Shown here: positions 18,623 to 36,960 of the stretch, piece by piece
Position numbering within the stretch: position 1 is the first letter of the stretch
How the letters are laid out: every line of letters starts with the position of its first letter
Source of the DNA: Eubacteriales bacterium
GTDB taxonomy: Bacteria > Bacillota > Clostridia > Lachnospirales > Lachnospiraceae
NCBI GenBank assembly: GCA_030524175.1
Contig: JAUNHC010000005.1
Span: 110,506 to 174,505, forward strand
DNA length: 64,000 bases
Reading direction: 5' to 3'
Program-made: the position numbers and the translations under genes
Notes under the pieces: model-generated
Database searches by the model: none
What the model saw: only the letters and a program-made list of their open reading frames with translations
What the model was told of the DNA's origin: nothing

Positions 18623-18727
18623 AAACGCGCCTTTCAGCGCTGCGGCATTCAGGAATACAATGAAACCCTAAATGATTATCTTATAAAGTATAACAAAAAA
18701 AGATTAAAGTATCACTCAGAAATATGA
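18623..18727 (+). pseudogene. Remnant of an integrase-type (rve) transposase C-terminus
   Basis: The plus strand of this 105-base stretch reads, in one frame before a TGA, a run including EYNETLNDYLIKYNKKR. This resembles the end of the DDE integrase domain of IS3/IS481-type transposases, where a short motif of the type Y-N-x-K-R follows a helix. No upstream catalytic part is present, and the surrounding 388-base gap between the aquaporin and the GntR gene holds no intact gene. I take it as a relic of an insertion at the left edge of the catabolic island. The match is short. Confidence 0.45.
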
Positions 18728-18848
18728 ACAAAAAAACATAGACAGAATCTTGAATTGGCTGCTTAGTCAATTCACCAAAACGTCCGTGCCCCCACTCTTA
18801 AATCATTTATATCCAGCAATACTTTTTACAAAATAATATTAAAATAAT

Positions 18849-18885
18849 TGCCCTGTTTTGACATAGTTTTAGTCTTTACAGGGCA
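18849..18885 (-). terminator. Terminator after the island's GntR gene
   Basis: TGCCCTGT and ACAGGGCA flank a 21-base loop, and on the minus strand are followed by an AT-rich, T-biased tract. It lies 25 bases past the regulator's stop and marks the end of the island transcript. Confidence 0.65.
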
Positions 18886-18909
18886 CTAATGGGGGCGATT
18901 CATAACATC

Positions 18910-19605
18910 TCACTCACAAATTATTGTTTTTTCATATGTTTGCTGAGTATGAATCCTTGCCATCTTTGGTTTTTCAAATTCAATTAGAGTAGTACGTTCA
19001 ACCTCTATTAAGTGATTATGCAAAAGTGTTCGTGCCTCGCCATCGTCTCGCTTTCTTATAGCATCTATAATAGCCAAATGAGTTGCTCTGGATCTTTCAA
19101 AATGCTCCGGGTCCCTTGCCGTAATCCTATTGATTATTGCAAATTGGGCGAGCAAAGTACTATAAAAACCCCTAAGCCTGCTGTTACCGGCATATTCAAT
19201 AATTGCATAATGCAATTCCGTGTTGGCACTAAAATATTCCTCTGCCTGTGACTCTTTATTGAGATTCTGAAATTTAATTTCCAAATCGTCGAGTCTTTTA
19301 TTATCCATATAGATACATGCCTTAGAAATGGCATGTAACTCAAACATTATTCTGAGTTCAAATATCTCCTTAAGATCACTGATTGAGAAATCCGTCACAA
19401 ACGTGCCCCTGCCCACAAAACGGTTTACGATTCCTTCGCCTTCCATATGGTTAAGAGCCTCCCGCACAGGAGAACGACTAATTCCTAAAGTTTTGCTTAT
19501 ATCTGATTCCGACAGCAAAGATCCCATTGGTATATCGCCCGAAAGAATACCACTATAAATGTACTCATATGCCTTTGAAACAGCTGCCGAAGTTTGTTTT
19601 TCCAT
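18910..19605 (-). CDS. GntR/FCD transcription regulator of the catabolic island
   Basis: The 231-residue protein has an N-terminal winged helix (about 8-75) with the GntR signature SRSPVREALNHMEGEGIV and an all-helical FCD effector domain (about 85-215) with Asp/His residues typical of metal and carboxylate ligand binding (ELHYAII). FCD regulators usually repress operons for sugar acids or other organic acids and release DNA on binding an intermediate. The only transcriptional regulator in the island, it is encoded at the end of the gene cluster. A perfect 16-base palindrome 61 bases upstream is a likely operator, so autoregulation is inferred. Confidence 0.9.
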   Translation of the reverse strand: MEKQTSAAVSKAYEYIYSGILSGDIPMGSLLSESDISKTLGISRSPVREALNHMEGEGIVNRFVGRGTFVTDFSISDLKEIFELRIMFELHAISKACIYMDNKRLDDLEIKFQNLNKESQAEEYFSANTELHYAIIEYAGNSRLRGFYSTLLAQFAIINRITARDPEHFERSRATHLAIIDAIRKRDDGEARTLLHNHLIEVERTTLIEFEKPKMARIHTQQTYEKTIICE

Positions 19606-20140
19606 AAAAAATCTCCATCCTCCCAGACTGTCCGAAAACCCGTTGTTTCATTTGCTTTTCAGCCATTTTTGTATACAAAAAAGTGCCAAGTTGTCAGACT
19701 TCCGTCCATTAATAATTACCTGACTCAGGCTCTTCATGGCACCATTAAAACATATACAGTCAACAACTCCAAGTTTTTTCATCGCTTTCCTATTTTTCGA
19801 TGAAATAGAATATGTCAAATACTCACACATCCAACGAGTCGTAACACTGTTAAAGTTTATCTAAAGTAAATCCCTTTGTCAAGATTAAATTGGAAATAAT
19901 TAGCAAATATGAAAGGTGTAGCATGGATCTGGAGATGCTTCGCATTTCGTATTTTTGAACTACTGCTGACTGTAGCAAAGTCAGAAACCATCCCTACACG
20001 GCTATATCTTTTGTCAGCGTGCAAAGCGGAGGAGTGGAGAGGAGTGTTCCTCCGCTGACTGGCAACATCACGGCAGATGGTAAAATAGGCAGTACGGTTT
20101 CTCACTGAATAGAGTTCTAGACTACTCGTCCAAAACATTC
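19606..20140. other. 535-base gap upstream of the GntR gene, no convincing gene
   Basis: The stretch between the amidase stop and the regulator holds the palindrome at 19666-19681 and a strong hairpin, AGCGGAGGA / TCCTCCGCT (20024-20057, 16-base loop). Two short minus-strand frames (19648-19830 and 19857-20144) have no ribosome site and no recognised family, and I do not call them. The unusual size for this tightly packed cluster suggests a deletion scar or a decayed gene. Confidence 0.5.
19666..19681. promoter_or_regulatory. Palindromic candidate operator of the GntR/FCD regulator
   Basis: TTTTTGTATACAAAAA is a perfect 16-base palindrome centred about 70 bases before the regulator start. 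TTGTATACAA-type sites are known operators of FCD-subfamily GntR proteins. It shares the TGT-NN-ACA core with the palindrome at the head of the cluster (36609-36618). Confidence 0.6.
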
Positions 20141-20986
20141 TCACTTTATGGCTGTGTTCGATATGTTATGATAAACATCCGGCCTTCGTGCTGAAAAGAG
20201 GTGTAGTTCGTGAACTCCCGGTTCGATGATCACATCCTTCTGGTCAGCTAAATCAAGATTTATCTCCGCAGCAATAATCCCCTCTTCTTCCCCAAGTTCC
20301 TGCAGAACCGTTCCATTTATATCTATAATTTGCGAATGCCCGATAAATTGATATCCTCGCTCATTACCTATTCTATTTGCAGATACAACAAATACTCTGT
20401 TTTCACATGCTCGTGTACGATTAATAAACCTTGAGTAAGCTATACCTGCCGGCGGAAGATTGGTCGAATGCAAAATCAATCGTGCCCCCGAAAGAGATTC
20501 CTCTCTCATAGCCTCAGGAAACCGCATATCAAAACAGACAATCATTCCAATCTTTCCAAATCCCGTGTCAAAAACCGGAAGTGAATTCCCCCCTGATACG
20601 AACCTGTCGAGCCCGAGAAAAGAAAGGTGCACCTTCCTGTAAACATTTATCTTACCATCTGGCATACAATAAATGGAACTATTATATACTGTATCATCTG
20701 CCAGCTCAGACATTCCGAACATTATATTTATTCCCAGATCAACAGCCAATTTTGACATACGGCACACTGTCGGTCCATCCAGGCTCTCAGAAACAGAAAT
20801 GACCTCTTCCCGACTATGAAAGGAATATCCCCCTACAGCCGCCTCGGGAAATACAACTATATCAGAATTATATTTTTCCCTGGCTTGAACAGTCATACTT
20901 TCCATCTTACATATATTATATTCTTTATTAAATATTTTTATATCCATCTGCGCCGCAGCAACATTAACAATATTCCTACGTTCCAC
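20141..20986 (-). CDS. Nitrilase-superfamily amidase (carbamoylase-like)
   Basis: AGGAGG directly abuts the ATG at 20992, so the GTG at 20986, six bases downstream of it, is the likelier start (281 residues). The three catalytic residues of the carbon-nitrogen hydrolase family are present: Glu in FPEAAVGGYS near 47, Lys in YRKVHL near 117 and Cys in IVCFDMRFPE near 150. This family cleaves amides, nitriles and N-carbamoyl groups. A hydantoinase in the same cluster makes N-carbamoyl hydrolysis an attractive role, releasing ammonia and CO2, but a plain amidase is equally possible from sequence. The gene starts 19 bases after the upstream SDR. Confidence 0.85.
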   Translation of the reverse strand: MERRNIVNVAAAQMDIKIFNKEYNICKMESMTVQAREKYNSDIVVFPEAAVGGYSFHSREEVISVSESLDGPTVCRMSKLAVDLGINIMFGMSELADDTVYNSSIYCMPDGKINVYRKVHLSFLGLDRFVSGGNSLPVFDTGFGKIGMIVCFDMRFPEAMREESLSGARLILHSTNLPPAGIAYSRFINRTRACENRVFVVSANRIGNERGYQFIGHSQIIDINGTVLQELGEEEGIIAAEINLDLADQKDVIIEPGVHELHLFSARRPDVYHNISNTAIK

Positions 20987-21004
20987 ATCCATCCTCCTCT
21001 TTCA

Positions 21005-21775
21005 TTAGCCGATCATCGTGTCACCGCTATTAGGACAAATTGTCTGCCCAATAAACGCAGTAGCTTCATCGGATGCAAGGAATAAAACTGCAGGAGCTAT
21101 TTCCTCCGCCTCTGAATATCGTCCTAACGGAAGAGTTGGCTCTTTAGCTGCTCTCCATTCTTTGGAGACATGTTCTGTCTGCCCTATATCAACAGGTCCC
21201 GGTGCAACCGCATTGATCAAAATATTCGTCTTCATTCCCAATGCACCAAATTCCAAAGCCAATGCTTTTGTAAGAGCAATCACTCCGCCCTTTGCTGCCG
21301 AATAGGCAGACAACTCATTTCCGCCTTTCTGACCAAGCTGAGAGGCTATATTAATAATTCTTCCGCTTTCTGCATCTTTTAAGTAATGAAATGCTTCTTT
21401 AATCGTCACAAATAATGCGAACAAATCAATGTTAAGCATATCCTTAACTTCCTCATAAGAAATATCTATAAGTTTGCCCTGTACCAGAATACCGGCATTG
21501 TTAACAAGAATATCAAATTTCCCATATTTTTCTATTAGCGCCTTATACATGTCTCTTACTTCTTTTGCATTAGAGATGTCCGCTCTGAAAGCAAATGCTT
21601 CGCCACCGGCATCCTTGATTTCTTTTACAACGTCCCTAGCTTTTTCTGCACTGGACAGGGAAGTATAATTTACACAAACTTTACACCCCTCCTTCGCGAA
21701 TAGAAGTGCTATGGCTCGTCCAATACCTCTACTTGCACCCGTTATCACAGCTGTTTTTCCTTCAAGTCTTTTCAT
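21005..21775 (-). CDS. Short-chain dehydrogenase/reductase (SDR 1)
   Basis: The ATG at 21775 follows AAGGGGG; the frame continues upstream without a ribosome site. The 256-residue protein is a classical SDR: TGASRGIG nucleotide motif (about 11-18), NNAG near 91, catalytic Ser in NIASQLGQKGG and YSAAKGG as the Tyr-x-x-x-Lys pair near 158-162. An NNYTSLSS-like stretch after strand 2 (NYTSL) lacks an acidic residue and hints at NADP preference. It would oxidise or reduce a hydroxyl/keto group on the pathway compound. Its C-terminus PNSGDTMIG resembles those of SDRs 4 and 5, so these three are closer relatives. Confidence 0.85.
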   Translation of the reverse strand: MKRLEGKTAVITGASRGIGRAIALLFAKEGCKVCVNYTSLSSAEKARDVVKEIKDAGGEAFAFRADISNAKEVRDMYKALIEKYGKFDILVNNAGILVQGKLIDISYEEVKDMLNIDLFALFVTIKEAFHYLKDAESGRIINIASQLGQKGGNELSAYSAAKGGVIALTKALALEFGALGMKTNILINAVAPGPVDIGQTEHVSKEWRAAKEPTLPLGRYSEAEEIAPAVLFLASDEATAFIGQTICPNSGDTMIG

Positions 21776-21855
21776 TTTATTGCCCCCTTTATGATGTGCC
21801 TGCATAGTTGCAATACTTTCACAGTATTTCATCAGCAAAATGCTACCCTCTACGT

Positions 21856-22629
21856 TTAGATTACCTTTTCAGTCGGTTGCCCCGTCTTTACATCTGCTGC
21901 TCCGGTAATTCTCAAATGAGCACCATCTACATACCTTGCTTTTTCAGAAATAAAATAAATATATTCCGCAACAGCCTCAGGTGGGCACACCTCTCCGTAT
22001 ACACTCCAAAGTGGATTTGTATCAATATATTCCTGGGCTATTTCAGGTGTATTAGCCTCATACATAGGAGTATTTACTGCCCCCGGACACATAGCATTTA
22101 CACGAATATTGTATTTTGCGTAGTCCAAAGCCATTGCTCTGGTAATATTAACAACGGCTCCTTTGGCCGCACAGTATAGAGGCGTCTTCCAGTCTGCCAG
22201 CACTCCGGAAATAGAAGCGAGGTTCATGATCGAGCCTCCGCCATTTTCTATCATGTATGGAACAACTAGCTTTGACAATAAAAATATGGACTTTATATCA
22301 ACATTCATCATGTAGTCCCAATCTTCTACCGAAACATTATGCAAAAGTCCTGCATTTCTCGCTCCGGCATTATTAATAACAGTATCAACTCCCCCCATGA
22401 CTTCCATAACTTTATTATAAAGCATCTGAATGTCTTCCTTCTTAGAAACGTCACAGCACACAAATGTGATCTCACCTTTTCCCTCTGACGCTCTGCAATC
22501 TGATACAAGCTTAATACCTTTCTCTTCGTGTCGTCCGCAGCCTACAACATTCCATCCATGTTTGTAATAATATTTGGCTGTCGCACACCCCATGCCTGTA
22601 GTCGCGCCGGTTATCAATACTCTTTTCAT
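21856..22629 (-). CDS. Short-chain dehydrogenase/reductase (SDR 2)
   Basis: The ATG at 22629 is preceded by AAGGAG; the frame start at 22653 is not. The 257-residue SDR has TGATTGMG near the N-terminus, NNAGARN near 92, the Ser of NLASISG and an intact YCAAKGA active site. GCGRHEEKG after the second strand places an Arg where NADP's phosphate would bind. It is about the same length as the adjacent SDR 3 and shares long stretches with it (TRAMALDY, SGAxDVxTGxP-like tail), so the pair arose by tandem duplication. It retains all catalytic residues, unlike its partner. Confidence 0.85.
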   Translation of the reverse strand: MKRVLITGATTGMGCATAKYYYKHGWNVVGCGRHEEKGIKLVSDCRASEGKGEITFVCCDVSKKEDIQMLYNKVMEVMGGVDTVINNAGARNAGLLHNVSVEDWDYMMNVDIKSIFLLSKLVVPYMIENGGGSIMNLASISGVLADWKTPLYCAAKGAVVNITRAMALDYAKYNIRVNAMCPGAVNTPMYEANTPEIAQEYIDTNPLWSVYGEVCPPEAVAEYIYFISEKARYVDGAHLRITGAADVKTGQPTEKVI

Positions 22630-22680
22630 CGTCTTCTCCTTTTTATGTATCAAAACGAACTTATTCTGTTGATTCCGTAA

Positions 22681-23442
22681 TCATAATCCCTCATTTCTTG
22701 GTCCCCCTGTCTGAACATCAACAGCCCCGCTTACCGGAAGCAATACACCGCTGCAATGGGTTGACTCATCAGATGCAAGGAAGTAAACACACTTTGCACA
22801 TTCCATAGGTGTTCCCACTTTATGCATAGGATTAGCATTAGCAAAAAGTACCAATCTTTCATCATCATAATCAAATAGATCCGTAATGCACTCAGCCCCT
22901 GCGCATATACCATTTACCCGAATCTTATATTCGCCATAATCCAGCGCCATAGCTCTTGTTAAATCTGCAACGCCACCCATAGCCGCACAATATGCCGCCA
23001 TATTATATTCCCCTTGGAGACCTGATAAAGAAGCATTATTAACGATTGCTCCGCCGCCATTTTCCATCATATATGGGAGAAAAGTTCTTGTAGTAAGCAG
23101 TATGGATCTGAGATTGACTGAAAAAATTTCATCCCAAGCAGATTCGTCTGTAAGATGAAGCTGACCAAATAGCGCTACCTCTGCATTGTTAAATATTGCA
23201 TCAACGCCGCCTGCACACTCTATAACAAATGCTTCCAATTTGTCTATTTCTTCTTCTTTTGATACATCGCCTTCCATACAGAAAAACACTTTATTATATT
23301 TAATTCCAAGTTCTAATAATCTATCTCCAATGGGCTTCCGTCCAAATCCGACTACAATCCAACCTCTTTTCAAAAATAGTTCGGCAGATGCCTGCCCGAC
23401 CTTAGACGTAACATCTGTAATCAGTATTCGCTTCATGTTCAT
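22681..23442 (-). CDS. SDR-fold protein lacking the catalytic lysine (SDR 3)
   Basis: This 253-residue protein is clearly SDR-fold and a duplicate of SDR 2, but key residues differ. The glycine motif reads TDVTSKVG rather than TGxxxGxG, NNAG is NNAE, and the active-site Tyr is followed by C-A-A-M, so the invariant Lys of YxxxK is Met (codon ATG on the minus strand). The frame is otherwise intact with a good ribosome site, so it is not simply a decayed gene. It may be an inactive structural partner of SDR 2, or may bind something other than NAD(P). Both ideas are inference. Confidence 0.8.
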   Translation of the reverse strand: MNMKRILITDVTSKVGQASAELFLKRGWIVVGFGRKPIGDRLLELGIKYNKVFFCMEGDVSKEEEIDKLEAFVIECAGGVDAIFNNAEVALFGQLHLTDESAWDEIFSVNLRSILLTTRTFLPYMMENGGGAIVNNASLSGLQGEYNMAAYCAAMGGVADLTRAMALDYGEYKIRVNGICAGAECITDLFDYDDERLVLFANANPMHKVGTPMECAKCVYFLASDESTHCSGVLLPVSGAVDVQTGGPRNEGL

Positions 23443-23475
23443 CCTCCAAAATCTGTATTGAATAATTTAGTTGAC

Positions 23476-24981
23476 TTAAGCCGGCTGCTCAGCTAATTTT
23501 CCGCCAACTGAGTAACTTAGCACTTCCTCCGCCGTTGAATGTGCAGTGATTAATTCTTTTATTATTTTCCCTTCGAACATAATAAAAATTCTGTCCGATG
23601 AACTAAGCAGTTCCTCTGTTTCTGATGAAAACAAAATGATGCCGACACCTTTCTCCGCAAGCTTCCTTAAATTGTCATAAATTTCCTGTTTGGCTCCTAC
23701 ATCAACGCCCTTTGTCGGTTCATCTAAAATAATTAATTTTTTATCAGCTGCAATCCATCTTGACACTACTACCTTCTGTTGATTTCCCCCGCTAAAGGAA
23801 GTCACACTCAGATTAATATCATTCGGATGAACATTACATTCTTTCATCATCCGGTTCGCTATTTCAATTTCTTTATTCTTTTTTGCAAAAAAACCTATTT
23901 TATCCAGTGTGGCAGAAACAATATTACTCTTTGCATCAAGATTCCCTAAAAGTCCTTCCAATTTGCGGGAAATGGGGACATGACCAATACCATACGCTGC
24001 AGCCTGCAGGGGCGATGTGGGATGTATGTTCTTTCCCTCGAAAGTTATCTTGCCGTCATACTTTTTGTTGATTCCAAACAATGTTCTTGCCAAATCGCTT
24101 TTACCCGATCCCACAAGTCCGGCAAAGGCTATAATCTCACCTCTATGAAGCTGGAAGCTGATGTCACTGAATTTTCTTTCAATGCCAAGATGGCTTACCT
24201 CCAGCATAACATCATTGGGATCACCATGAGTTATCGCAGACTTTTTGAAAATATCAGCGCTCTTGCCCAACATGTAGTTAACAATCTCATCCATATTAAA
24301 ATTGTGAACATCTCCACTGGCAACAACATGACCATCCCTCAGAATACTAAGAGTATCACACACATCAAATACTTCTCCCATCTTATGAGTAATAAGCACT
24401 ACAGCAATGCCCTTTTTTTTCAGATTTCTTATAATATCATAAAGAATCTTTTCTTCAGATCTTGAAAGACTGGAGGAAGGTTCATCGAGAAACACAACTT
24501 TGGGTTTTGTATAAAGACACTTGGCGATTTCCACAAGCTGCTGCTTTGCGATTGGGAGATCCTTTACATAGGCATCTAATTCAACATCAATTTTATACTC
24601 TTCCAAATGCGCCTTAACAGCTTTTCTACACGCCTCCCAATCAATCATTCCCTTTTTCATCACGTAATTCTGATTAATTATATTTTCCATAACTGAAAGT
24701 GCATTAAACAAATTCAGTTCCTGAAAAACCATGGCGATTCCTTTATCCATAGCCTCTGATGGACTGCTGAATACAATCGTTTCTCCATTAAATTCAATCG
24801 ACCCACCCGTAGGTTGATGAATTCCTTGTAATATTTTTACTAAGGTTGATTTTCCAGCTCCGTTAACCCCAAGCAAAGCTTGAACCTGACCGGGGTAAAA
24901 ATCTACAGACACATCTTCAAGAACACTATTACTGCCAAAATTTTTGCAGATATGCTGCGCTGAAAGTATAGCTCCGAACAT
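23476..24981 (-). CDS. ABC sugar-type importer ATPase (RbsA/XylG family)
   Basis: The 501-residue protein has two tandem ATPase domains, as in the CUT2 sugar import family. The first has Walker A GVNGAGKST (near 38) and FLDEPSSSLS; the second has the degenerate P-loop GLVGSGKSD, signature FSGGNQQK and ILDEPTKGVD. The first half lacks a clear LSGGQ signature, usual for this family. It should power uptake with the permease at 28358 and the binding protein at 26873. Unusually, two SDR genes separate it from the rest of the transporter. AAGGAG lies seven bases before the ATG. No second permease gene is present, consistent with a homodimeric channel. Confidence 0.93.
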   Translation of the reverse strand: MFGAILSAQHICKNFGSNSVLEDVSVDFYPGQVQALLGVNGAGKSTLVKILQGIHQPTGGSIEFNGETIVFSSPSEAMDKGIAMVFQELNLFNALSVMENIINQNYVMKKGMIDWEACRKAVKAHLEEYKIDVELDAYVKDLPIAKQQLVEIAKCLYTKPKVVFLDEPSSSLSRSEEKILYDIIRNLKKKGIAVVLITHKMGEVFDVCDTLSILRDGHVVASGDVHNFNMDEIVNYMLGKSADIFKKSAITHGDPNDVMLEVSHLGIERKFSDISFQLHRGEIIAFAGLVGSGKSDLARTLFGINKKYDGKITFEGKNIHPTSPLQAAAYGIGHVPISRKLEGLLGNLDAKSNIVSATLDKIGFFAKKNKEIEIANRMMKECNVHPNDINLSVTSFSGGNQQKVVVSRWIAADKKLIILDEPTKGVDVGAKQEIYDNLRKLAEKGVGIILFSSETEELLSSSDRIFIMFEGKIIKELITAHSTAEEVLSYSVGGKLAEQPA

Positions 24982-25057
24982 AATTTTTCTCCTTTTTCAA
25001 GTTCATTAAATTTTATCTGTTAATCTTGTGTTCTATCAAATTTTATTAAGATATGTT

Positions 25058-25807: not shown

Positions 25808-25867
25808 AATATTCCCCTCCCTACAATATTAGAAGCTTTATCAGAAAAGTTTATCGCCAAGTATATA

Positions 25868-26620: not shown

Positions 26621-26787
26621 TATTTTTCCTCCCAATATGTAAAATTTATTGTTCAGACCCTTGAGCCGTCAATCATAAAGCTCTTCAATCTTTTTTAAGA
26701 CCTGGTCAATAACCCACATCTACCGCAAATAACGGAATTCCTATCGGTTTATCTTTCTTACATACATCATGATCAAATAGTGCATAC

Positions 26788-26835: not shown

Positions 26836-26872
26836 ATAAATGCTAAACCAAACCCCAGCTGAAACTAAAAAT

Positions 26873-29405: not shown

Positions 29406-30767
29406 TTATTCAGACTCTTTTATCTTTGCATAGCGCGGGACATATCTGCCGTATCCCCGCTCTCCCAAAATCTTGTTGTCCTTCATAATGCGAGTTCCGC
29501 GTAAATAAGTCTCAACCGGCCATCCTTTAAATTTCCAACCTATGTAAGGACAAATATCGCTGATATAGTAAAGATCTTCCTGTTTTACCTCTCTTACAAG
29601 ATCCATATCAACAACGATCATATCTGCATCCGCTCCAACTTCAATGGTTCCTTTCTGAGGATAGAGACCAAAAATCTTTGCAGCATTGGTGCTTGTAACA
29701 GCAACAGCCTGATTGATAGAAAGTCTTCCTTCATTTACACCATTAAAAATAATGGGAAGCATAGTCTGTGTCTCTGAAGTACCTACGATCGCACTCCAAA
29801 TATCTTTCTTATCCTTGCTGCTTACATCGCCTGAGTCAGAACCTACAGTGGAAATGGTGCCGTCTGCAAGTGCCTTCCATAATGCCTCATTATCTTCCTT
29901 ACGACGAATCGGCGGATTTCTCTTATCTCTTACATTGTCACAATTATCAATATTCAGCACCAGATATTCCGGGCATGTCTCACCATAGCATGTAACACCT
30001 TCGGCTCTTGCCTTTATTATCTCTCCGGGGGCTTCTCTCGTTGTCAAATGTACAAGATACAGAGGACAGCCTGTAGGCTTGGCAAAGGAAACAACCTTTC
30101 GGATCGACTCAACCTCAACCCAGTTAGGTCTGGTATCAGTCCAATAAGGCTCAATCCCTTTTTCCATGAATTCATTCCTCAAAATATTGTATACATCATA
30201 GTTTTCAGCATGAATGCAGGCAAGTGCAGGAGCTGTCAACTTACCAATTTCCCTGAAACCGGCAAAGATAATACCGTCATCAATACCGGTAAGGTTTCCA
30301 ACTGCCTCAGTTCCCTTATAAGGAAGGTAGAACTTATAGCTGCAGATTCCTTTCTTTGTTGACATTTCTTCAATTTCACTGACTTCATTCATGTCAAAAA
30401 TACCTTCATGGAATGCAGCATCAACAAAAGCATGCTTCTCAAACATAGGAAGTCTTGTCTCAAGTTGTTCTATAAGATCAATCGGCTCATTGAGATAATG
30501 AATAATGGTTGTGATCCCTCCCGCTGCTGCTGTTTTTGTTGTGCACTCACAATCTTCTTCCCAATCCCAGTTTGGCCACTGTATATGGGCATGCGGATCA
30601 ATTCCGCCCGGCATAATATATTTCCCGCCCACATCAACAATTTCTTTTGCCTCCATGTTGTCATCTGTCCCGATATACACAATTTTTCCACCTTTGACAC
30701 CTATCGCTGCCTCATAGGTTCTGTCTGTAGTTACAATTTTCCCGTTTTTTAACAACAAATCAAACAT
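29406..30767 (-). CDS. Hydantoinase/dihydropyrimidinase-family cyclic amidohydrolase
   Basis: The 453-residue protein has the full metal set of the hydantoinase branch of amidohydrolases: HAH in GGIDPHAHIQ near 60, the lysine to be carbamylated in YKFYLPYKG near 148, His in ACIHAEN near 186, His in LVHLTT near 242 and Asp in VGSDSGDV near 315. These zinc enzymes open cyclic ureides or imides (hydantoins, dihydropyrimidines, allantoin) to N-carbamoyl acids. A nitrilase-type amidase at the end of the cluster could take the next step. The exact ring compound cannot be told from sequence; D-hydantoinase, phenylhydantoinase and allantoinase all share this pattern. Confidence 0.88.
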   Translation of the reverse strand: MFDLLLKNGKIVTTDRTYEAAIGVKGGKIVYIGTDDNMEAKEIVDVGGKYIMPGGIDPHAHIQWPNWDWEEDCECTTKTAAAGGITTIIHYLNEPIDLIEQLETRLPMFEKHAFVDAAFHEGIFDMNEVSEIEEMSTKKGICSYKFYLPYKGTEAVGNLTGIDDGIIFAGFREIGKLTAPALACIHAENYDVYNILRNEFMEKGIEPYWTDTRPNWVEVESIRKVVSFAKPTGCPLYLVHLTTREAPGEIIKARAEGVTCYGETCPEYLVLNIDNCDNVRDKRNPPIRRKEDNEALWKALADGTISTVGSDSGDVSSKDKKDIWSAIVGTSETQTMLPIIFNGVNEGRLSINQAVAVTSTNAAKIFGLYPQKGTIEVGADADMIVVDMDLVREVKQEDLYYISDICPYIGWKFKGWPVETYLRGTRIMKDNKILGERGYGRYVPRYAKIKESE

Positions 30768-30809
30768 AAGTTCTCCTTTCCTATTCCTTATTTTATTGAT
30801 ACTGTATTA

Positions 30810-32078
30810 TCAGAAGAGATTCCCGTTCTCATCAAATGTCATCTCTTCCGGATACCTGATTATTTTGACATTGGGATTGGTCTCTGCCTCAGTGATCATT
30901 GACTCAGAAATCCAAATCTGCCCTAAAGACAATGTATCCTTTATTCGTACCATTCTTATATTTTCTTTTTCGAAACCCGGTGCAGTTTTGATCGCAGCCT
31001 GTATTGCAAGTTTCTGATCTTCCATAACCATAGGGATACGAACAGCTGACGTAAGAGTAGCTGTCAAAGCGTTAGGATATGTAGCCTCCATATCGAACTT
31101 CTCGTAAAGCCGCCGTGTAGTCACATCCGCAACACCTATCCCATTGCCATTGCCATGAGTCTCATCTGTCAGATCAAGCACAACTGTTTTCTCAGGTCTA
31201 TTAGGACCATGAGCATAAGGACTTGCAAAACAGCCGGATACATGAGGATCCATCCCAAGTCCGCTAATATTTTTTCCTATTTTATCTACCACCAGTACGT
31301 CAATATCGCTGAAATATATCTTGGGCATCATAGACTTTGCTTTTGTAAGAAAGCTGGTTTCCGCTTTCTCAAAATCTTCAGGTTTTACAGCTTTGACGAG
31401 GCTGGTCTTATCAAACGCATTTTCTAAAATCGCAACGCCAAATAACACCTTTGAGTTATTTAGTATTCCATGCCCATACTTAAGGATATTATCAGCAATC
31501 TTTGCATACCCTTCCTGATGACATACTTCCGCACCAGCTTGCTTGGCCAGACCTATTGCCATCATTTTCATAAGCCCGCTTTCACAATGTCCTGTAAAAG
31601 ATGTGTGTGCTTTCACCCTATTTACTACTATGATCCCATCAGCCTTTGCTGCATAAGCATCTATCTGTATCGGTCTGTTATCCTCTGTCGTTCCAATGCG
31701 TTCTACAGTCATGGAAGATTTTATTTCGCAGTCCATAGTTTCCTGCGTTATACCCAAACCTTTTAAGACCTGAACCTGCCCCTCTGCTGTCGCACCCCCA
31801 TGGCTCCCCATAGCCGGAATAATAAAGGGTACTGCCTCACGTGATTTTACAGCATTTACAATAGTTCTAAGAATTGTGTCAATATTGCATATTCCTCTGC
31901 TTCCTGCCGTAATAGCAACGGACATACCAGGTTTAATACTATCAAGCACCTTTTCGTCTTCAAGCGTATCAGCAACCGCCTTCTCAACATCATCTATATA
32001 AGCTTCGTCAAAAAATTGTTCAACAAGAGCCATCTTAGGTATCGGTACGCATTTACACAGATCATTAACTACTCCCAT
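30810..32078 (-). CDS. LarA/DUF2088-like protein, possible racemase or epimerase
   Basis: This 422-residue protein resembles the lactate-racemase (LarA, DUF2088) family. The N-terminal half has the GSRGI and AMGSHGGATAEGQ loops that correspond to LarA's nucleotide-domain GTHR loop, and a central segment (KAHTSFTGHCESGLMKM) stands where LarA has its nickel-pincer lysine. The canonical GGRK motif is absent, so it belongs to a divergent subgroup and Ni-cofactor use is unproven. No larB, larC or larE is in the window. Neighbouring dehydrogenases suggest a role in changing the stereochemistry of a 2-hydroxy acid. It has AAAGGAG seven bases upstream. Confidence 0.65.
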   Translation of the reverse strand: MGVVNDLCKCVPIPKMALVEQFFDEAYIDDVEKAVADTLEDEKVLDSIKPGMSVAITAGSRGICNIDTILRTIVNAVKSREAVPFIIPAMGSHGGATAEGQVQVLKGLGITQETMDCEIKSSMTVERIGTTEDNRPIQIDAYAAKADGIIVVNRVKAHTSFTGHCESGLMKMMAIGLAKQAGAEVCHQEGYAKIADNILKYGHGILNNSKVLFGVAILENAFDKTSLVKAVKPEDFEKAETSFLTKAKSMMPKIYFSDIDVLVVDKIGKNISGLGMDPHVSGCFASPYAHGPNRPEKTVVLDLTDETHGNGNGIGVADVTTRRLYEKFDMEATYPNALTATLTSAVRIPMVMEDQKLAIQAAIKTAPGFEKENIRMVRIKDTLSLGQIWISESMITEAETNPNVKIIRYPEEMTFDENGNLF

Positions 32079-32097
32079 AGGTCAACTCCTTTAGACA

Positions 32098-33516
32098 TTA
32101 TTCATCAATGATTACAATGTTCAGCTTATCTGCAATCTCTCTGGCTTTTTCAATACTAGGTTCCACACGCTTTAGGATAAGCCTTGCCCCACCGCTGTTA
32201 ACTGATTCAACCATGGAATTAGCTTCTGTAGCATACACACTGATTCTCTGGATGCCAGGTTCATGAATCTTAATAATTTCCACATCCACACCTTTCGCTC
32301 TGGCCACATCCATACTATTCTTATATGCTTCCACATCACTGGTTCCATACCCATCTATAGCTGCCATAAGAATGCCTGGAACATTTATAGCTCTTCTGGC
32401 GAACATCTCATCATATATTTCTATTTTGACTTTTTTAACTTCGCCCTTTGCAAGAAAATGAGCTATGCGCGCACAATTCGTCGGCGAACCTACTCCAAGG
32501 CTGCTTCCTCCCACAACTGCATCACCAAAAGGCTGCGTAATAGGACTAGCCTTGGCAGCCAGCTGGCGGCTCTCTTGTATAGCTCTGGCGATAAGCTCCT
32601 GCTGCCGCTGCACTTCTTCCTCCTTGACTTCCTGCGGAATATACCAATCTACCTTTTCGTTATGCTTAAAGAATGGTTCCATATAATCAATAGTGATAGG
32701 AACTATATTTTTTGCGGAAGCTATATGGCATTGCGCCGCCATAGCAATCATTACATCTGCCGGCACTGTTGAAGGCAGCGAGGTGTACATGGAAAGCTGG
32801 CTGGCAAGTCTTCCTATAAGAATTGCTCCGCCAATATGTGTTGCACAAAGTCCAGGTACCATTACTCTGGGCGTACATGGTACACTTATTGTAGGGGAAA
32901 TTGCCAAAGATATAGCTCTTTCCATCTCCGCCGGTGTGCCTCCGTAAAGCTCTACAAAGGCTGCCGCCGTTGCTGCTGCTCCAGCACCAAAGCCCTCCAT
33001 ATTACAACCGGTAGTCCTCTTTCCAATTCTAAACATGCCGCCAGTCTTAAGAATTACAGCCATTACTCTGTGGTGCAGTTCAAAATCTTCAAACTCTTCT
33101 TTCATTGCCATAACAAAACCTGTATATGGACATGAGTCACCAGTTCCTGCACAAGGTCTTAAGCCAATTGAATGATTACCTACCTGAGCAGCAAGAGTAT
33201 AGGTGATCGCCTTGTTGACAAATGTATCCTCCACAATTTTGTGAGCATCCTCTTTTGCCAGGTCATTTCCAACACCGCCTAACAAAAAGCTACTTCCAGT
33301 AGTGGCCCCAATCCTCGCAGCTTCAAAATTATGCTGAAAAGCCTCCTCCATACAATTTGTAACTTCTTCTTTTGAAAGTTTAAGGCTTTCACATGCTTCT
33401 TCTATAATTACGTTACCGACACTCAATCCTGCTTCTGTGGCCACGTTAATGCACTCGCCTATAGTCATATGCCCATAGGTAAAACCTTTGTAACTTGCAA
33501 TTTCCGAGATGGTCAT
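32098..33516 (-). CDS. Iron-sulfur L-serine dehydratase alpha-like enzyme
   Basis: The 472-residue protein resembles the alpha subunit (SDH_alpha) of Fe-S serine dehydratases. It has a PCAGTGDSCP segment near 122, GCNMEGFGAGAAATAA near 171, and cysteines in VPCTPRV and PGLCATH near 212 and 222, which match the three cluster ligands of the family in order. It is longer than SDH_alpha (~290) and the C-terminal ~130 residues do not match the usual beta subunit. Its substrate is probably a hydroxy acid or hydroxy amino acid formed in this pathway. UPF0597-type cysteine desulfidases are an alternative family. It starts 20 bases after the RraA gene at 33538 in coordinate order. Confidence 0.7.
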   Translation of the reverse strand: MTISEIASYKGFTYGHMTIGECINVATEAGLSVGNVIIEEACESLKLSKEEVTNCMEEAFQHNFEAARIGATTGSSFLLGGVGNDLAKEDAHKIVEDTFVNKAITYTLAAQVGNHSIGLRPCAGTGDSCPYTGFVMAMKEEFEDFELHHRVMAVILKTGGMFRIGKRTTGCNMEGFGAGAAATAAAFVELYGGTPAEMERAISLAISPTISVPCTPRVMVPGLCATHIGGAILIGRLASQLSMYTSLPSTVPADVMIAMAAQCHIASAKNIVPITIDYMEPFFKHNEKVDWYIPQEVKEEEVQRQQELIARAIQESRQLAAKASPITQPFGDAVVGGSSLGVGSPTNCARIAHFLAKGEVKKVKIEIYDEMFARRAINVPGILMAAIDGYGTSDVEAYKNSMDVARAKGVDVEIIKIHEPGIQRISVYATEANSMVESVNSGGARLILKRVEPSIEKAREIADKLNIVIIDE

Positions 33517-33537
33517 TATACTGCCCTTCCTCTCTGC

Positions 33538-34212
33538 TTACTTTTCTTCAGTACATCCAAGAGCGTCGAACACTTTCTGGTAACCATAGATATCAAATGA
33601 AGATTCTCCTGCACGAAGCCTTCTCATAATATCTTTCTCTTTCTCTACTCTGGCTTCTGCTTTCCTTATTGTTTCCTCTGCTTCATCAAGAGGTACGCAA
33701 ACAACTCCGTCTGCATCTCCTACAATAATATCGCCAGGATTGACAATTATCCCGCCTATTGATATAGGATGATTTAATGTTCCTAAGGTTGCCTTCGCAG
33801 TTCCACTTATACAAATCCCAGATGAAAATACCGGAAGACCATGCTCAATGATTTCGCTGCTATCTCTTACTGCTCCAGAGAAAACCATTCCTCCGATTTT
33901 CTTTGCAATACACTCTACACAAAGCACTTCTCCGAATGGACCAGAGTTAACGGCATTTCCCATGTTTGCCACAATAACATCTCCCGGCCGTGCCATACTA
34001 ATCGCTTTGATAAGCATAATATTGTCTCCGGTATGACACTGAACAGTTAATGCTCGTCCTGCCACTCTCATCTTTCTGTCAAGGGGTTTAATTTTAGGGT
34101 CAAGTGCTCCTCTTCTTCCCATAGCCTCATGGAGCGTTGCTGAAGCCTGACCCTTGTATTTTTCAATCAGTTCATCTTTACACATGGGTCTTGTCTTAAT
34201 TATATTGATCAT
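33538..34212 (-). CDS. RraA-family aldolase/decarboxylase-like protein 3
   Basis: The frame opens at 34260, but ATG 34212 follows GAGGTGA by nine bases and lies just past the stop of the dehydrogenase gene. The 224-residue protein is an RraA/HMG-aldolase-fold member with GPFGEVLCVECIAK near 98, GGMVFSGAVRD near 120 (metal-binding Arg-Asp pair kept) and GDADGVVCVP near 175. The GPFGE motif is the version found in true class II pyruvate aldolases such as 4-carboxy-4-hydroxy-2-oxoadipate aldolase, so it is the best candidate of the three for aldol cleavage or oxaloacetate-type decarboxylation. The substrate is unknown. Confidence 0.78.
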   Translation of the reverse strand: MINIIKTRPMCKDELIEKYKGQASATLHEAMGRRGALDPKIKPLDRKMRVAGRALTVQCHTGDNIMLIKAISMARPGDVIVANMGNAVNSGPFGEVLCVECIAKKIGGMVFSGAVRDSSEIIEHGLPVFSSGICISGTAKATLGTLNHPISIGGIIVNPGDIIVGDADGVVCVPLDEAEETIRKAEARVEKEKDIMRRLRAGESSFDIYGYQKVFDALGCTEEK

Positions 34213-34231
34213 GTTTTTATTCACCTCATTG

Positions 34232-35176
34232 TCAAATTGTATATAAAGGTGCCTCTCCATTCATTATTCGAAGGGTATTGCTTATACAAAGTTCATAACC
34301 CCGATAGTAATTATCATATGTAGCAGCTCCCACATGTGGTGTAACGATTAGATTGGGAATATCCACACCAAACAACGGCTCTGATGGCTCAAATATATCA
34401 AAGGCAGCGCCCCAAATTTTTTTCGCCTTGAGTGCTTCCATTAATGCATCGCAGTCAACAAGTGCGCCTCTGGCCGTATTAATAATGATTGCATTCGGCT
34501 TCATTTTTGCAATCTGTTCTTTTCCAATCATATTATGGGTACTGTCAAGCAGGGGCACATGAAGAGAAATAATGTCAGCCTCCTCAAGCAGCTCGTCTAG
34601 GGATACATACTTACATCCCAGCAGTTCCTCATCCTCTGGTTTCATACGGAACACATCATAATACACAATATTCGCGCCAAATGCTTTCACCCTTTCCATA
34701 ACCTTTCTTCCAATAGTCCCGCTGCCAATAATGCCAACTGTCTTTCCAGTAATTTCATAACTGTCATGGCGCCAGGTCATAGTATGCCACTCTTTTTTCT
34801 TCGTGAAATAATCCAAGTCTACAATATGCCTGTATAAAGCAAGCATATCAAGGACTGCTAACTCAGCTACTGATGTAGAGTTAAACCCCTTACAAATAGA
34901 AATTGGGATACCCTTTTCCTTGGCACGGGCAACATCAACCATATCAACTCCAACACCCGTTCTTTGAATAAGTTTCAGATTCGGAGCTGCGTCAATAACT
35001 TCAGCAGATGTATGAAATGTAGTTACGTAAAATACATCTGCGTCTTTAATGTCACCTTTTTTCCCAATAGCAGGATTCCGGAAACGAAGATCTATGTCGT
35101 CCGGGCACATATCAATCAGCATCTTTTCCATATGTTCATTAAGAGTATCAAGATATAACGCTAAAATTTTTTTCAC
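34232..35176 (-). CDS. D-isomer-specific 2-hydroxyacid dehydrogenase
   Basis: It starts at GTG 35176, eight bases after AAGGGG. The 314-residue protein has the NAD-binding GIIGSGTIGRKV near 148 and the catalytic triad: Arg in NTARGALVD near 233, Glu in FDIFEPSEP near 263 and His in TPHVGAAT near 282. It is like phosphoglycerate, glyoxylate/hydroxypyruvate and D-lactate dehydrogenases. YYDVFRM after the second strand places an Asp for NAD. It would reduce or oxidise a 2-hydroxy acid such as glycerate, tartronate semialdehyde product or a larger sugar acid. It lies between RraA 2 and RraA 3 in the operon. Confidence 0.9.
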   Translation of the reverse strand: MKKILALYLDTLNEHMEKMLIDMCPDDIDLRFRNPAIGKKGDIKDADVFYVTTFHTSAEVIDAAPNLKLIQRTGVGVDMVDVARAKEKGIPISICKGFNSTSVAELAVLDMLALYRHIVDLDYFTKKKEWHTMTWRHDSYEITGKTVGIIGSGTIGRKVMERVKAFGANIVYYDVFRMKPEDEELLGCKYVSLDELLEEADIISLHVPLLDSTHNMIGKEQIAKMKPNAIIINTARGALVDCDALMEALKAKKIWGAAFDIFEPSEPLFGVDIPNLIVTPHVGAATYDNYYRGYELCISNTLRIMNGEAPLYTI

Positions 35177-35196
35177 TTGAATTTCCCCTTTTCAAT

Positions 35197-35874
35197 TTAG
35201 TTATTTCTATATTCTTTCGTCTGCAGATGGTGATATCCTGTCTTTTTTCTTGCTTCTCTGAGTGTAATTCCATTTTTCACATAATTACGTATTATATCTT
35301 CTTTTTTCTCTATATTCTGGGCTATTTCAAGGACCTCTTCTACCCTGTTATACGGAACTGCAAGACACCCTGTTTCATCTCCGAAAATCAAATCTCCGGG
35401 CATAACCTTGACACCTGCGATTGTCACCGGACCATTTATCTCCGCGACTTCCACTCTGTCCTTTCCGGTTACCATCCAATAATCATTAGAGAATATGGGA
35501 TATTTAAGAGTTCTTACCGCTACTACATCACGGCATATGCCATAGATAACGGTTCCGGCTATGCCTTTCATTTTCGCTGTCATAGCCATAATGTCTCCCC
35601 ACACAGTACAATAGTCACGACCACCGTTATCCAGTACACATACCATCCCCGGTTCTACATCGTCTAAAAAATCTCCCACAGTGCCCTTGACTTCTCCGCA
35701 TGGCATATACCTGACCGTAAACGCCTGACCACACATCACAACACCATTTACTATAGGTTTAAGATGATAAAACGAATTATTAAATCCAAGCTTATCCATC
35801 GCATCAGAAACACTGGTTGAATCTAATTTTTTATATGCTTCGATAATTGATTCATCTAATTTCTTAATTTCCAA
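35197..35874 (-). CDS. RraA-family protein 2
   Basis: The likely start is a TTG at 35874, 11 bases after AGGAG; no ATG is available near the expected N-terminus. The 225-residue protein begins with SVSDAMDKLG and has the family's LDNGGRDYCTVWGD near 100, and GTVIYGICRD near 127. In most members the latter motif reads V-x-D-G-x-x-R-D; here the first Asp is Tyr, while the metal-binding Arg-Asp is kept. GDETGCLAVP near 183 follows. RraA-fold proteins serve as aldolases, decarboxylases or RNase E inhibitors; the last does not apply here. Substrate and activity are unknown. Confidence 0.78.
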   Translation of the reverse strand: MEIKKLDESIIEAYKKLDSTSVSDAMDKLGFNNSFYHLKPIVNGVVMCGQAFTVRYMPCGEVKGTVGDFLDDVEPGMVCVLDNGGRDYCTVWGDIMAMTAKMKGIAGTVIYGICRDVVAVRTLKYPIFSNDYWMVTGKDRVEVAEINGPVTIAGVKVMPGDLIFGDETGCLAVPYNRVEEVLEIAQNIEKKEDIIRNYVKNGITLREARKKTGYHHLQTKEYRNN

Positions 35875-35898
35875 TTATGCTATACTCCTTTCCTGCCT

Positions 35899-36567
35899 TT
35901 ACTGTTTTAGCATGTTTTCATAATTATATTTTTTATCAACTTCCGCAGATGACATTCCAGATTTGATATCATTGCACATGGCAACTTCTTTTGCATATAT
36001 AGCTTCTGCTTTCTCTACTACTTCTTCAAGTCTTTCCTGTGGAATAAACACAACGCCTGTAATATCACCCACTACCACATCTCCAGGTCTTACCTGCACT
36101 CCGCTGAAAGAAACCATAACATTTGTCGCCTCTTCCATAATTCTCCCACGAGCTGTGATACATATAGTGCTTTTCGCATATACAGGAAAATCTAGTTCCT
36201 GACATTCATCCAAATCTCTGGCGCATCCATCGATAACAACTCCTGATATACCTTTGTATTTTGCGCCGGTACTGAGAATCCCGCCCCAGCAGTTCACATC
36301 TTCACGTCCGCCATTGTCTACAACAATAACGTCGCCTTCTTTAGCAGCTTCAATAGCGTTTATGCCCAAATGTGATTTTGATTTGGTTAGTCCGGCTGCA
36401 CATAATTTAACTGTAACGGCTTCTCCAATTATCTTTTTACAGTTCTCATACATCTTGTGTACACCAATGGAAGCTCCGTGAATCTCCAGTGCATCCATAG
36501 CGTCCGAGAGATTTGTAGTCCCAAGTTTGTCTATTCTCTCTCTCATCGCATTTGTAAGATTTCCCAT
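35899..36567 (-). CDS. RraA-family protein 1, first gene of the island operon
   Basis: The 222-residue protein begins NLSDAMDALEIHG and has VDNGGREDVNCWGG near 85-98, SGVVIDGCARD near 120 (full DGxxRD motif) and GDITGVVFIP near 180. It is closer to RraA 2 than to RraA 3. AGGGGG lies eight bases before its ATG, and a consensus promoter with an adjacent palindrome lies upstream, so this is the first gene of the long minus-strand transcript. In class II pyruvate aldolases of this fold the Arg-Asp pair holds a divalent metal and the enolate; this gene keeps it. Three paralogues in one operon may form hetero-oligomers or act on successive intermediates. Confidence 0.8.
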   Translation of the reverse strand: MGNLTNAMRERIDKLGTTNLSDAMDALEIHGASIGVHKMYENCKKIIGEAVTVKLCAAGLTKSKSHLGINAIEAAKEGDVIVVDNGGREDVNCWGGILSTGAKYKGISGVVIDGCARDLDECQELDFPVYAKSTICITARGRIMEEATNVMVSFSGVQVRPGDVVVGDITGVVFIPQERLEEVVEKAEAIYAKEVAMCNDIKSGMSSAEVDKKYNYENMLKQ

Positions 36568-36608
36568 AATTAGTACCCCCTAAATTAAAATGTGTTGTTG
36601 CATTTTTC

Positions 36609-36618
36609 CTGTCGACAG
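36609..36618. promoter_or_regulatory. Palindromic candidate operator at the head of the island operon
   Basis: CTGTCGACAG is a perfect 10-base palindrome just downstream of the -10 box, about 42 bases before the RraA 1 start. It shares TGT-NN-ACA with the palindrome upstream of the GntR/FCD gene and is well placed for repression. Confidence 0.5.
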
Positions 36619-36631
36619 CTTGTATATTGTA

Positions 36632-36660
36632 ATTATATAACAGAAATTCACAAATGTAAA
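36632..36660 (-). promoter_or_regulatory. Consensus sigma-A promoter of the catabolic island
   Basis: TTTACA and TATAAT with a 17-base spacer on the minus strand, about 65 bases upstream of the first island gene. Confidence 0.8.
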
Positions 36661-36686
36661 TAAGAAAATAGTATTATTTTTGTTTC

Positions 36687-36960
36687 AAGGAATTGTTTGA
36701 AGAAATACGTCATACACTTGTGATGAAAGATTTATATTCGCAAAGGAAAGAAACCATTGAAGAATCTTCGGAATTACAAAGGAGAATCGCGGTTTCGGAT
36801 ATACACAGATATTTTGAAAATCCTGAACGGAAAAGAAAGCCTGGCTTACATTTGCAGTATGAATTTTAAAAAGCTGGCAAAGATTAAAGCAAAGTGGCGA
36901 TTCCTGGGGGAAGAAGACCCGCTGAAATTTTCTATTTTATACGCAATTAAATTAATAAAA
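36687..36960 (+). pseudogene. IS1182-type transposase C-terminal remnant, frameshifted
   Basis: In one plus-strand frame the region reads EEIRHTLVMKDLYSQRKETIE, with the order and spacing of the IS1182 transposase pattern around the catalytic Glu (typically an R-K-E-T-I-E-R run). It then breaks, and the next frame continues with RFRIYTDILKI and ICSMNFKKLAKI, matching the family's end (A-x-x-N-L-K-K-L-A-K). The N-terminal two thirds are missing. At least one frameshift and several stops show it is dead. It lies directly beside the island promoter and marks the right edge of the accessory region. Confidence 0.75.

Follow-up and report, generated by a model that had tools for sequence, protein, structure and literature searches.

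A foreign-looking two-block gene island of a gut-type Lachnospiraceae-family bacterium as a candidate system for fermenting a nitrogen-ring compound

A run of 17 genes on the minus strand, from 36567 to 18910 of the window (the whole 64,000-nucleotide stretch that was analysed), comprises 16 enzyme or transport genes and one GntR/FCD regulator gene. We put at about an even chance the view that it is a two-block operon of foreign appearance carried by a genome of the Lachnospiraceae family, and hold with equal confidence that the promoter-distal (upper) block is a ring-opening module which would feed a conserved lower pathway encoded by the promoter-proximal (core) block. More tentatively, the operon could serve a new anaerobic fermentation of a hydroxylated N-heterocycle; this would parallel nicotinate fermentation without requiring B12 and would have swappable enamidase and hydantoinase modules under one kind of GntR regulon. 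An unexplained gene list is thereby placed in a testable biochemical frame, and the island predicts a new mode of nitrogen-ring compound fermentation, possibly a B12-free use of vitamin-like or other nitrogen rings by gut anaerobes. The core genes are listed below, where L001-L004 denote related loci.

35899..36567, minus strand: RraA1 (PF03737; 72-76% identity in L002-L004; nearest PDB entry 3k4i, uncharacterised)
35197..35874, minus strand: RraA2 (PF03737; 67-73% identity in L002-L004; nearest PDB entry 3k4i)
34232..35176, minus strand: D-2-hydroxyacid dehydrogenase (PF02826/PF00389; 57-64% identity in L002-L004)
33538..34260, minus strand: RraA3, 4-hydroxy-4-methyl-2-oxoglutarate/CHA aldolase type (NF006731; 59-70% identity in L001-L004)
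32098..33516, minus strand: Fe-S dehydratase, putatively of the 2-(hydroxymethyl)glutarate dehydratase type (PF03313, 29.3 against 26.4; 62-74% identity in L001-L004)
30810..32078, minus strand: nickel-pincer-nucleotide (NPN) isomerase group 22 of the LarA superfamily, LarA22 (NF052515, 521 against a cutoff of 400)

The enzymes named in an initial annotation of this DNA are all present (three RraA proteins, a LarA-like protein, an SDH_alpha-type dehydratase, a hydantoinase, five SDRs and a CN_hydrolase), but its title had left out the D-2-hydroxyacid dehydrogenase at 34232-35176. RraA3 resembles the HMG/CHA aldolase of the RraA fold, exceeding the NF006731 cutoff of 179 with a score of 191.3 and matching PDB 3noj at 7e-40, while RraA1 (93.2) and RraA2 (94) fell below that cutoff. 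Known HMG/CHA aldolases work in aerobic aromatic pathways, a setting unlike that of RraA3. At locus L137, RraA2 and an RraA3-like sequence adjoin a class I/II aminotransferase and an SDF symporter, which is compatible with action on a 2-oxo acid. Since relatives of RraA1 and RraA2 also occur in AcnX/aconitase-type clusters (L142-L144), these two may be general di/tricarboxylate enzymes. No RraA2 was found in viral contigs and no dehydratase in plasmids.

LarA22 belongs with NPN isomerase group 22, and its residues R61, H93, H158, K171 and K269 are at least 97% conserved across 61 sequences; the conserved candidate catalytic His and Lys are presumably equivalent to those of LarA, judging by their order. 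It had no sequence match in the PDB, and the LarC family (cofactor biosynthesis) is present in the genome. The island is a candidate physiological setting for this group, for which no description of activity was found in the literature searched; term searches of the main text found neither 'group 22' nor 'LarAH22' in PMC7583248, PMC11770544 or PMC12611868.

The full six-gene core (dehydratase, LarA22, RraA1, RraA2, RraA3 and 2-hydroxyacid dehydrogenase) was also found in L002-L004, which come from Clostridiaceae, Eubacteriales and Mediterraneibacter MAGs. Core genes lie next to LarA22 in 4 of 80 loci, and the core was not seen in the other 76, some of them short, so LarA22 alone is not specific to the pathway. 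Unlike the window, L002-L004 join the core to an enamidase, a 2-hydroxymethylglutarate dehydrogenase (Hgd-type) and two AA_synth (PF06684) proteins, and L003 and L004 additionally carry an NCS1 permease, a Zn-ADH and an isochorismatase-fold hydrolase; these last two loci have the regulator type and operator site in common with the window. The L004 enamidase matched PDB 2vun at 8e-162 (next match 1e-6), and PDB 3cky, '2-hydroxymethyl glutarate dehydrogenase', came first among 84 for its Hgd-type protein. In L003 and L004 the enamidase is paired with an isochorismatase-fold protein resembling RutB, and in L002 nitrilase-fold genes lie near it. L001-L004 showed no hydantoinase, no CN_hydrolase of the window's type and no SDRs alongside the core, which makes the joined operon a single sighting, and none of the hydantoinases in the four core genomes exceeded 35% identity to that of the window. 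In the stretches retrieved from L002-L004 the six core genes stand without hydantoinase or SDRs, so the island's genes do not form a single unit; given that the core has different partners in L002-L004 and in the window, the operon is taken as two blocks. That the core is a conserved lower pathway with an exchangeable ring-opening part is plausible, with the chances roughly balanced, and such a design would allow the lower pathway to be assayed before the substrate is identified.

Relatives of the dehydratase with 50-56% identity were found in 15 other genomes, 14 from a phylum search (15 of 398 including its own) and one from a class search (2 of 391 including its own). The neighbourhoods of 14 of these 15 look nicotinate-type, and by this test the enzyme falls in the 2-(hydroxymethyl)glutarate type. 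BLAST of the 15 extended loci, with queries drawn partly from one member (L103, whose B12-mutase-like, PrpF-type and isocitrate-lyase-type copies had their families checked), gave a B12-mutase-like protein, a PrpF-type isomerase and an isocitrate-lyase-type lyase in 14 each, an aconitase-type large subunit in 13, an Hgd-type protein in 12 and an enamidase-type protein in 11. The five LarA-linked dehydratases, including that of the window, form their own clade with support of 100/100. On these relationships the protein first annotated as an Fe-S dehydratase belongs with the 2-(hydroxymethyl)glutarate dehydratases known from nicotinate fermentation, and the core-bearing loci appear to make up a rare gene-set family akin to the one for anaerobic vitamin B3 breakdown.

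Nicotinate fermentation, reportedly the subject of work on Eubacterium barkeri by Alhapel in 2006, proceeds in its later part through Hgd- and Hmd-type steps. The route proposed here resembles it in these steps, in ring hydrolysis and in the 2-formyl acid. According to PMC9304392, a partly saturated ring is opened hydrolytically in that organism and a 2-formyl acid is involved. The Hmd-type dehydratase would also suit ordinary nicotinate fermentation in the island itself, yet this is highly improbable given that its 17 genes include no B12 mutase, PrpF-type isomerase, dimethylmalate lyase, aconitase-type protein (DmdAB), enamidase or molybdenum hydroxylase. The NPN isomerase, the 2-hydroxyacid dehydrogenase and three RraA proteins are there instead, a hydantoinase replaces the enamidase, and 2-hydroxymethylglutarate dehydrogenase is also absent. 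The upper block contains:

29406..30767, minus strand: divergent hydantoinase/dihydropyrimidinase-type cyclic amidohydrolase (TIGR02033, 335, below the cutoff of 393; PDB 1k1d, 5e-74)
28358..29353, minus strand: CUT2 importer permease (PF02653, BPD_transp_2)
26873..27988, minus strand: CUT2 substrate-binding protein (PF13407, Peripla_BP_4)
25868..26635, minus strand: SDR5 (PF00106; motifs intact)
25058..25807, minus strand: SDR4 (PF00106; motifs intact)
23476..24981, minus strand: CUT2 importer ATPase with two ABC domains (PF00005, 2 stretches)
22681..23442, minus strand: SDR3 (YxxxK replaced by YCAAM, glycine-rich motif gone; active site lost)
21856..22653, minus strand: SDR2 (PF00106; motifs intact)
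21005..21838, minus strand: SDR1 (PF13561; motifs intact)
20141..20992, minus strand: CN_hydrolase (nitrilase fold) amidase/carbamoylase (PF00795; PDB 1j31, 5e-44)

The ABC importer annotated initially is of the CUT2 sugar type, its two-domain ATPase, BPD_transp_2 permease and Peripla_BP_4 binding protein all being present, and the binding protein scored below every substrate-specific NCBIfam cutoff. SDR3 is possibly a partner of SDR2, and the start taken for SDR1 is probably too far upstream. The importer and the five SDRs would fit a different and rather unlikely explanation, in line with the polyol or sugar-acid part first proposed for the substrate, in which a sugar-like ureide is bound by the binding protein, a sugar-acid chain is the substrate of the SDRs and LarA, keto acids are cleaved by the RraA proteins, and the dehydratase has a hydroxyl of a sugar acid as its target. 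Some LarA22 loci do lie in sugar-acid-like clusters (labels assigned by eye from sequence), with CUT2/TRAP-type importers and UxaA-like or kinase/aldolase neighbours. However, while the CUT2, SDR and LarA families permit such a substrate, the best-anchored enzyme, the dehydratase, clusters with nicotinate-type enzymes and points to 2-(hydroxymethyl)-acid chemistry, and the sister core loci hold an enamidase and a 2-hydroxymethylglutarate-dehydrogenase-type protein.

The hydantoinase keeps the metal-ligand positions in alignment with PDB 1k1d; its closest relative among 291 class genomes is 39% identical, and identity was below 60% in every one of 998 plasmid records matched. Together with the CN_hydrolase it gives family-level support to the earlier proposal of a ureide or amide ring opener. 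Hydantoinase and nitrilase-fold hydrolase are a known pair in reductive pyrimidine and hydantoin use, and this pairing, with the physical separation of the two blocks, would suit nitrogen scavenging from hydantoins or dihydropyrimidines in an operon merely shared with an unrelated organic-acid pathway. This is unlikely, as both enzymes fall below the curated cutoffs of known pyrimidine/hydantoin enzymes (335 against 393 for dihydropyrimidinase; for CN_hydrolase 166 against 500 with NF040852 and 110 against 410 for N-carbamoylputrescine amidase), which leaves them outside the reductive pathway, and as sister loci pair a ring opener and an amidase-type hydrolase beside the same core. No aminotransferase for conversion of a beta-amino acid to a formyl acid was found in the island.

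In the preferred reading, the upper block (hydantoinase, importer, SDRs and nitrilase-fold amidase) would supply the lower pathway. An N-heterocycle would be taken up by the CUT2 importer, its hydroxyls adjusted by the SDRs and, judging by the families, a cyclic amide or ureide opened by the hydantoinase, after which the amidase would free nitrogen to yield a 2-formyl or 2-(hydroxymethyl) acid. Loss of water through the Hmd-type dehydratase would, by its relationships, give a 2-methylene acid. The nickel-pincer enzyme may invert a 2-hydroxyl at another chain position and the 2-hydroxyacid dehydrogenase oxidise the same hydroxyl to a 2-oxo acid, the family of each being established and their order presumed. 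RraA3, from its family, would perform a retro-aldol cleavage yielding pyruvate, and RraA1 and RraA2 might hydrate, decarboxylate or cleave a second species. The simplest chemistry occupying all core enzymes is perhaps a glutarate-derivative route to two pyruvates with no B12 mutase, a doubtful proposal whose exact intermediates are a guess: 2-hydroxy-4-(hydroxymethyl)glutarate would give 2-hydroxy-4-methyleneglutarate, then, by nickel-pincer epimerisation and oxidation, 4-methylene-2-oxoglutarate, whose hydration to 4-hydroxy-4-methyl-2-oxoglutarate would allow RraA cleavage to two pyruvates.

Literature searches turned up no characterised operon with this enzyme set, in agreement with the initial annotation. 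Riboflavin breakdown was rejected, the neighbourhood described in a 2026 Lachnospiraceae preprint (PMC12934955) being different (aldolase, oxidoreductases, riboflavin kinase) and the word hydantoinase being absent from its text. Literature on 5-hydroxynicotinate as a natural substrate, judged by the titles listed, was mostly chemistry or drug work, and that on free 4-methyleneglutamate-type compounds, also by titles, mostly omics studies; both were set aside. The regulatory features are:

36632..36660, minus strand: promoter-like site at the operon head (TTTACA-17-TATAAT, 11/12; top of 59 in the scan)
36609..36618, no strand assigned: operator-like palindrome CTGTCGACAG, immediately 3' of the -10 box
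18910..19605, minus strand: GntR/FCD regulator (PF00392, PF07729; TTTTTGTATACAAAAA in its own upstream region)

As to the single head promoter claimed earlier, the best-scoring promoter-like site (11 of 12) does stand at 36660-36632, the operon head; the scan as a whole gave 59 sites, about as many as shuffles (51.2, sd 7.3). TGTCGACA occurs once in the window and stands directly behind the -10 box there and in L003 and L004; when the upstream 100 nt were shuffled 2000 times, it turned up in 2, 5 and 1 shuffles, respectively. TTGTCGACAA is present in L003, L004, L137 (twice) and L142, while L001 has the variant AAGTCGACAA and L002 the variant TTGTCGACGC; the exact 8-mer is absent from L001, and L002 has a partial site only and no GntR match. 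The regulator is 50-55% identical to those of L001, L003 and L004. The common TGTCGACA palindrome behind the -10 box suggests one regulon, in which the GntR protein would repress the head promoter through CTGTCGACAG. A looser operator pattern allowing one mismatch occurs in the window about as often as expected by chance (5 against 5.06) and misses the 36609 site because of its A/T flanks. About ten further loci, of LarA22 or nicotinate type and without the core, also contain TGTCGACA. A riboswitch was rejected, the single Rfam match (E 0.13) scoring 17.3 bits where the gathering score is 50, as was a structured element in the 369-nt gap (z -0.93).

Spacing is mostly short, as first annotated, with gaps of -29 to 76 nt and three exceptions, 237 and 369 nt flanking the binding-protein gene and 535 nt ahead of the regulator. 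All 17 genes have GC3 values of 0.31-0.38, against 0.45-0.52 for the 6 genes examined in the flanks. This foreign composition, with the head-promoter palindrome common to related loci having the same kind of regulator, supports the description as a catabolic island with one regulator. The near-equal GC3 of the two blocks (0.344 and 0.346) is compatible with joint arrival, and separate origins were rejected on that basis. The dead transposase pieces said to bound the locus were not borne out by Pfam, plasmid and own-genome searches of the tested edge stretches: four edge peptide pieces gave no Pfam transposase match, two of them had no match in plasmids, and 19606-20145 had no DNA match among plasmids, while 18522-18910 was examined by translation and eye only. 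The edge stretches were not repeated elsewhere in the genome with the exception of 36907-36975, close to the flanking terminator, of which a repeat was found (70 nt, 84%).

The island comprises 17 genes on the minus strand, running from 36567 to 18910, in two blocks.

Order of the genes in the island
Genes 1 to 6, minus strand, core: RraA1, RraA2, D-2-hydroxyacid dehydrogenase, RraA3, SDH_alpha-type dehydratase, LarA-like protein (LarA22)
Genes 7 to 11, minus strand, upper block: hydantoinase, CUT2 permease, CUT2 binding protein, SDR5, SDR4
Genes 12 to 17, minus strand: CUT2 ATPase, SDR3, SDR2, SDR1 and CN_hydrolase of the upper block, then the GntR/FCD regulator

The ten upper genes are contiguous, as are the six core genes. 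The enzyme and transport genes listed in the initial annotation (three RraA, LarA-like, dehydratase, hydantoinase, five SDRs, amidase and importer) and the GntR/FCD regulator were all found; the D-2-hydroxyacid dehydrogenase, which makes up the 16 enzyme and transport genes, does not appear in the title of that annotation. The spacing, which it had called mostly short, does lie between -29 and 76 nt apart from 237 and 369 nt flanking the binding-protein gene and 535 nt ahead of the regulator. Searches of stretches at the island edges did not confirm the transposase pieces it placed there. GC3 is 0.31–0.38 across all 17 genes versus 0.45–0.52 in six flanking genes, and the block is therefore foreign in composition. 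The annotation knew of no characterised operon with this gene set, and the open-licence papers searched likewise contained no description of one.

Using the LarA protein as query gave 448 relatives, and 80 loci were examined. Further core genes lay beside LarA22 in four of them, L001–L004, some of the remaining 76 being short. The complete six-gene core is present in L002, L003 and L004, with identities to the window of 72–76% for RraA1, 67–73% for RraA2, 57–64% for the 2-hydroxyacid dehydrogenase, 59–66% for RraA3, 62–69% for the dehydratase and 53–57% for LarA22. The Lachnospiraceae locus L001 has the dehydratase (74%), LarA22 (65%), GntR (55%) and RraA3 (70%), its sequence starting within the dehydratase gene so that core content beyond that end is outside its coverage; it contains L082 (2276 nt, genome G414, same family as the window). 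The upper part of L002–L004 holds an enamidase, an Hgd-type (2-hydroxymethylglutarate-dehydrogenase-type) protein and two PF06684 proteins; L003 and L004 add an NCS1 permease, a Zn-ADH and an isochorismatase-fold hydrolase, and within a few kb in L002 lie two nitrilase-like genes, one of them checked in Pfam. The L004 enamidase matched PDB 2vun (Enamidase) at 8e-162, the next match being 1e-6, and 3cky (2-hydroxymethyl glutarate dehydrogenase) was the top of 84 PDB matches to the Hgd-type protein. Of the set that the annotation called conserved, LarA-like, three RraA and dehydratase occur together in L002–L004; hydantoinase relatives above 35% identity were not found in the four core genomes searched. 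The joined two-block operon has been seen once only.

PF06684 (AA_synth) also adjoins enamidase and Hgd-type genes in 8/15 of the loci L098–L112 around dehydratase relatives. We know of no described role for this protein in ring opening.

In the upper block, the hydantoinase aligned to PDB 1k1d keeps the metal-ligand positions of D-hydantoinase, scores below the D-hydantoinase cutoff (335 versus 393) and has a closest relative of 39% identity among 291 class genomes. SDR3 has YCAAM in place of the YxxxK of the other SDRs and lacks the glycine-rich motif; these losses suggest that it either is inactive, as is probable, or acts as a partner of SDR2. The CUT2 binding protein attained no substrate-specific cutoff.

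The enzyme families and their relationships are shown here. RraA3 scores above the cutoff of the curated 4-carboxy-4-hydroxy-2-oxoadipate aldolase model (191.3 versus 179); RraA1 and RraA2 fall under that cutoff, and their nearest structure is the uncharacterised 3k4i. RraA2 relatives occur in 3/230 family and 3/206 class genomes (E <= 1e-40, own copy counted). One, in L137, accompanies GntR, an SDF symporter, an aminotransferase and an RraA3-like sequence. Another, at 7992–8700 of L138, is broken into two frames beside an RraA3-like gene and is probably decayed or misassembled. L142 (with UbiD) and L143/L144, adjoining stretches of one contig, carry RraA2 and RraA1 relatives within AcnX/aconitase-type clusters. 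These neighbourhoods suit a unit acting on 2-oxo or hydroxy di/tricarboxylates. The order of the reactions, their substrate and what RraA1 and RraA2 do in the pathway are inferred. The window's genome has a fourth RraA-family match outside the island (G000:C34:6719-7201).

LarA22 exceeds the NF052515 cutoff (521 versus 400), had no phmmer match in the PDB, and shows conservation of 97% or more for Arg61, His93, His158, Lys171 and Lys269 across 61 sequences. These residues agree with the two-histidine mechanism described in PMC12611868. LarC is present in the genome.

The dehydratase, narrowly above the Pfam SDH_alpha cutoff (29.3 versus 26.4), had no convincing match among solved structures by sequence search. 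It is rare, being found in 1/64 genus, 2/397 family, 2/391 class and 15/398 phylum genomes (E <= 1e-20, with the window's copy counted every time). The class and phylum searches gave fifteen others, 50–56% identical to it. Around these, in the nicotinate-type loci L098–L112, a B12-mutase-like protein, a PrpF-type isomerase and an isocitrate-lyase-type protein each occur in 14/15, an aconitase-type subunit in 13/15, an Hgd-type reductase in 12/15 and an enamidase-type protein in 11/15, counted with queries taken in part from L103, whose copies of the first three were verified to family. The poorest locus, L102, has only enamidase-type and NCS1-like proteins besides the dehydratase. Pathway names for these cluster genes follow those of Eubacterium barkeri. 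The enamidase step yields (S)-2-formylglutarate, according to PMC9304392. LarA22 and RraA1–3 had no matches in the 15 loci (E <= 1e-15, half coverage), and a 20-row maximum-likelihood tree puts the LarA-linked dehydratases, five in all, in one clade (support 100/100) separate from the 15 nicotinate-type ones.

The top promoter-like site of the scan is at the island head, followed by CTGTCGACAG at 36609–36618. The equivalent place has TTGTCGACAA in L003 and L004, AAGTCGACAA in L001 and TTGTCGACGC in L002. We read the CTGTCGACAG/TTGTCGACAA-type site as a putative operator for the GntR that these loci share. The 64-kb window holds a single copy of TGTCGACA, and in 100 nt upstream this sequence arose in 2, 5 and 1 per 2000 shuffles (window, L003, L004). 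It is found 22 times in 1.82 Mb of other loci, a count that takes in L134 and L145, which are pieces of the window, the doubled stretches L135/L137 and L141/L143, and some ten loci of LarA22 or nicotinate type without the core. TTGTCGACAA is in 6/147 loci: L003, L004, L137 and L135 (same place), L142, and L012, which is not a core locus. Of the two L137 sites, one lies where the GntR frame has its 5' edge, the other ahead of RraA2; that of L142 precedes GntR. A looser operator pattern matched the window at chance level, the 36609 site not being among its matches. The 369-nt gap ahead of the binding-protein gene (27989–28357) contains a hairpin, TTTCCTCAGAATTTCTGAGGAAA, and at 28319 an operator-like CTGTCGAAAA with two mismatches to TTGTCGACAA; its overall fold is not unusual (z -0.93).

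Beyond the island, 37046–38443 (minus strand) encodes a trigger-factor-like protein with FKBP and Trigger_C (TIGR00115, 199.9 > 180.2). Its start resembles that of a lipoprotein by eye, and for this reason it is perhaps a surface-anchored foldase. The two adjacent proteins at 38578–39987 and 40023–41813 (minus strand) seem paralogous by eye, and Pfam matches the former to polysaccharide deacetylase (29.3 > 23.1).
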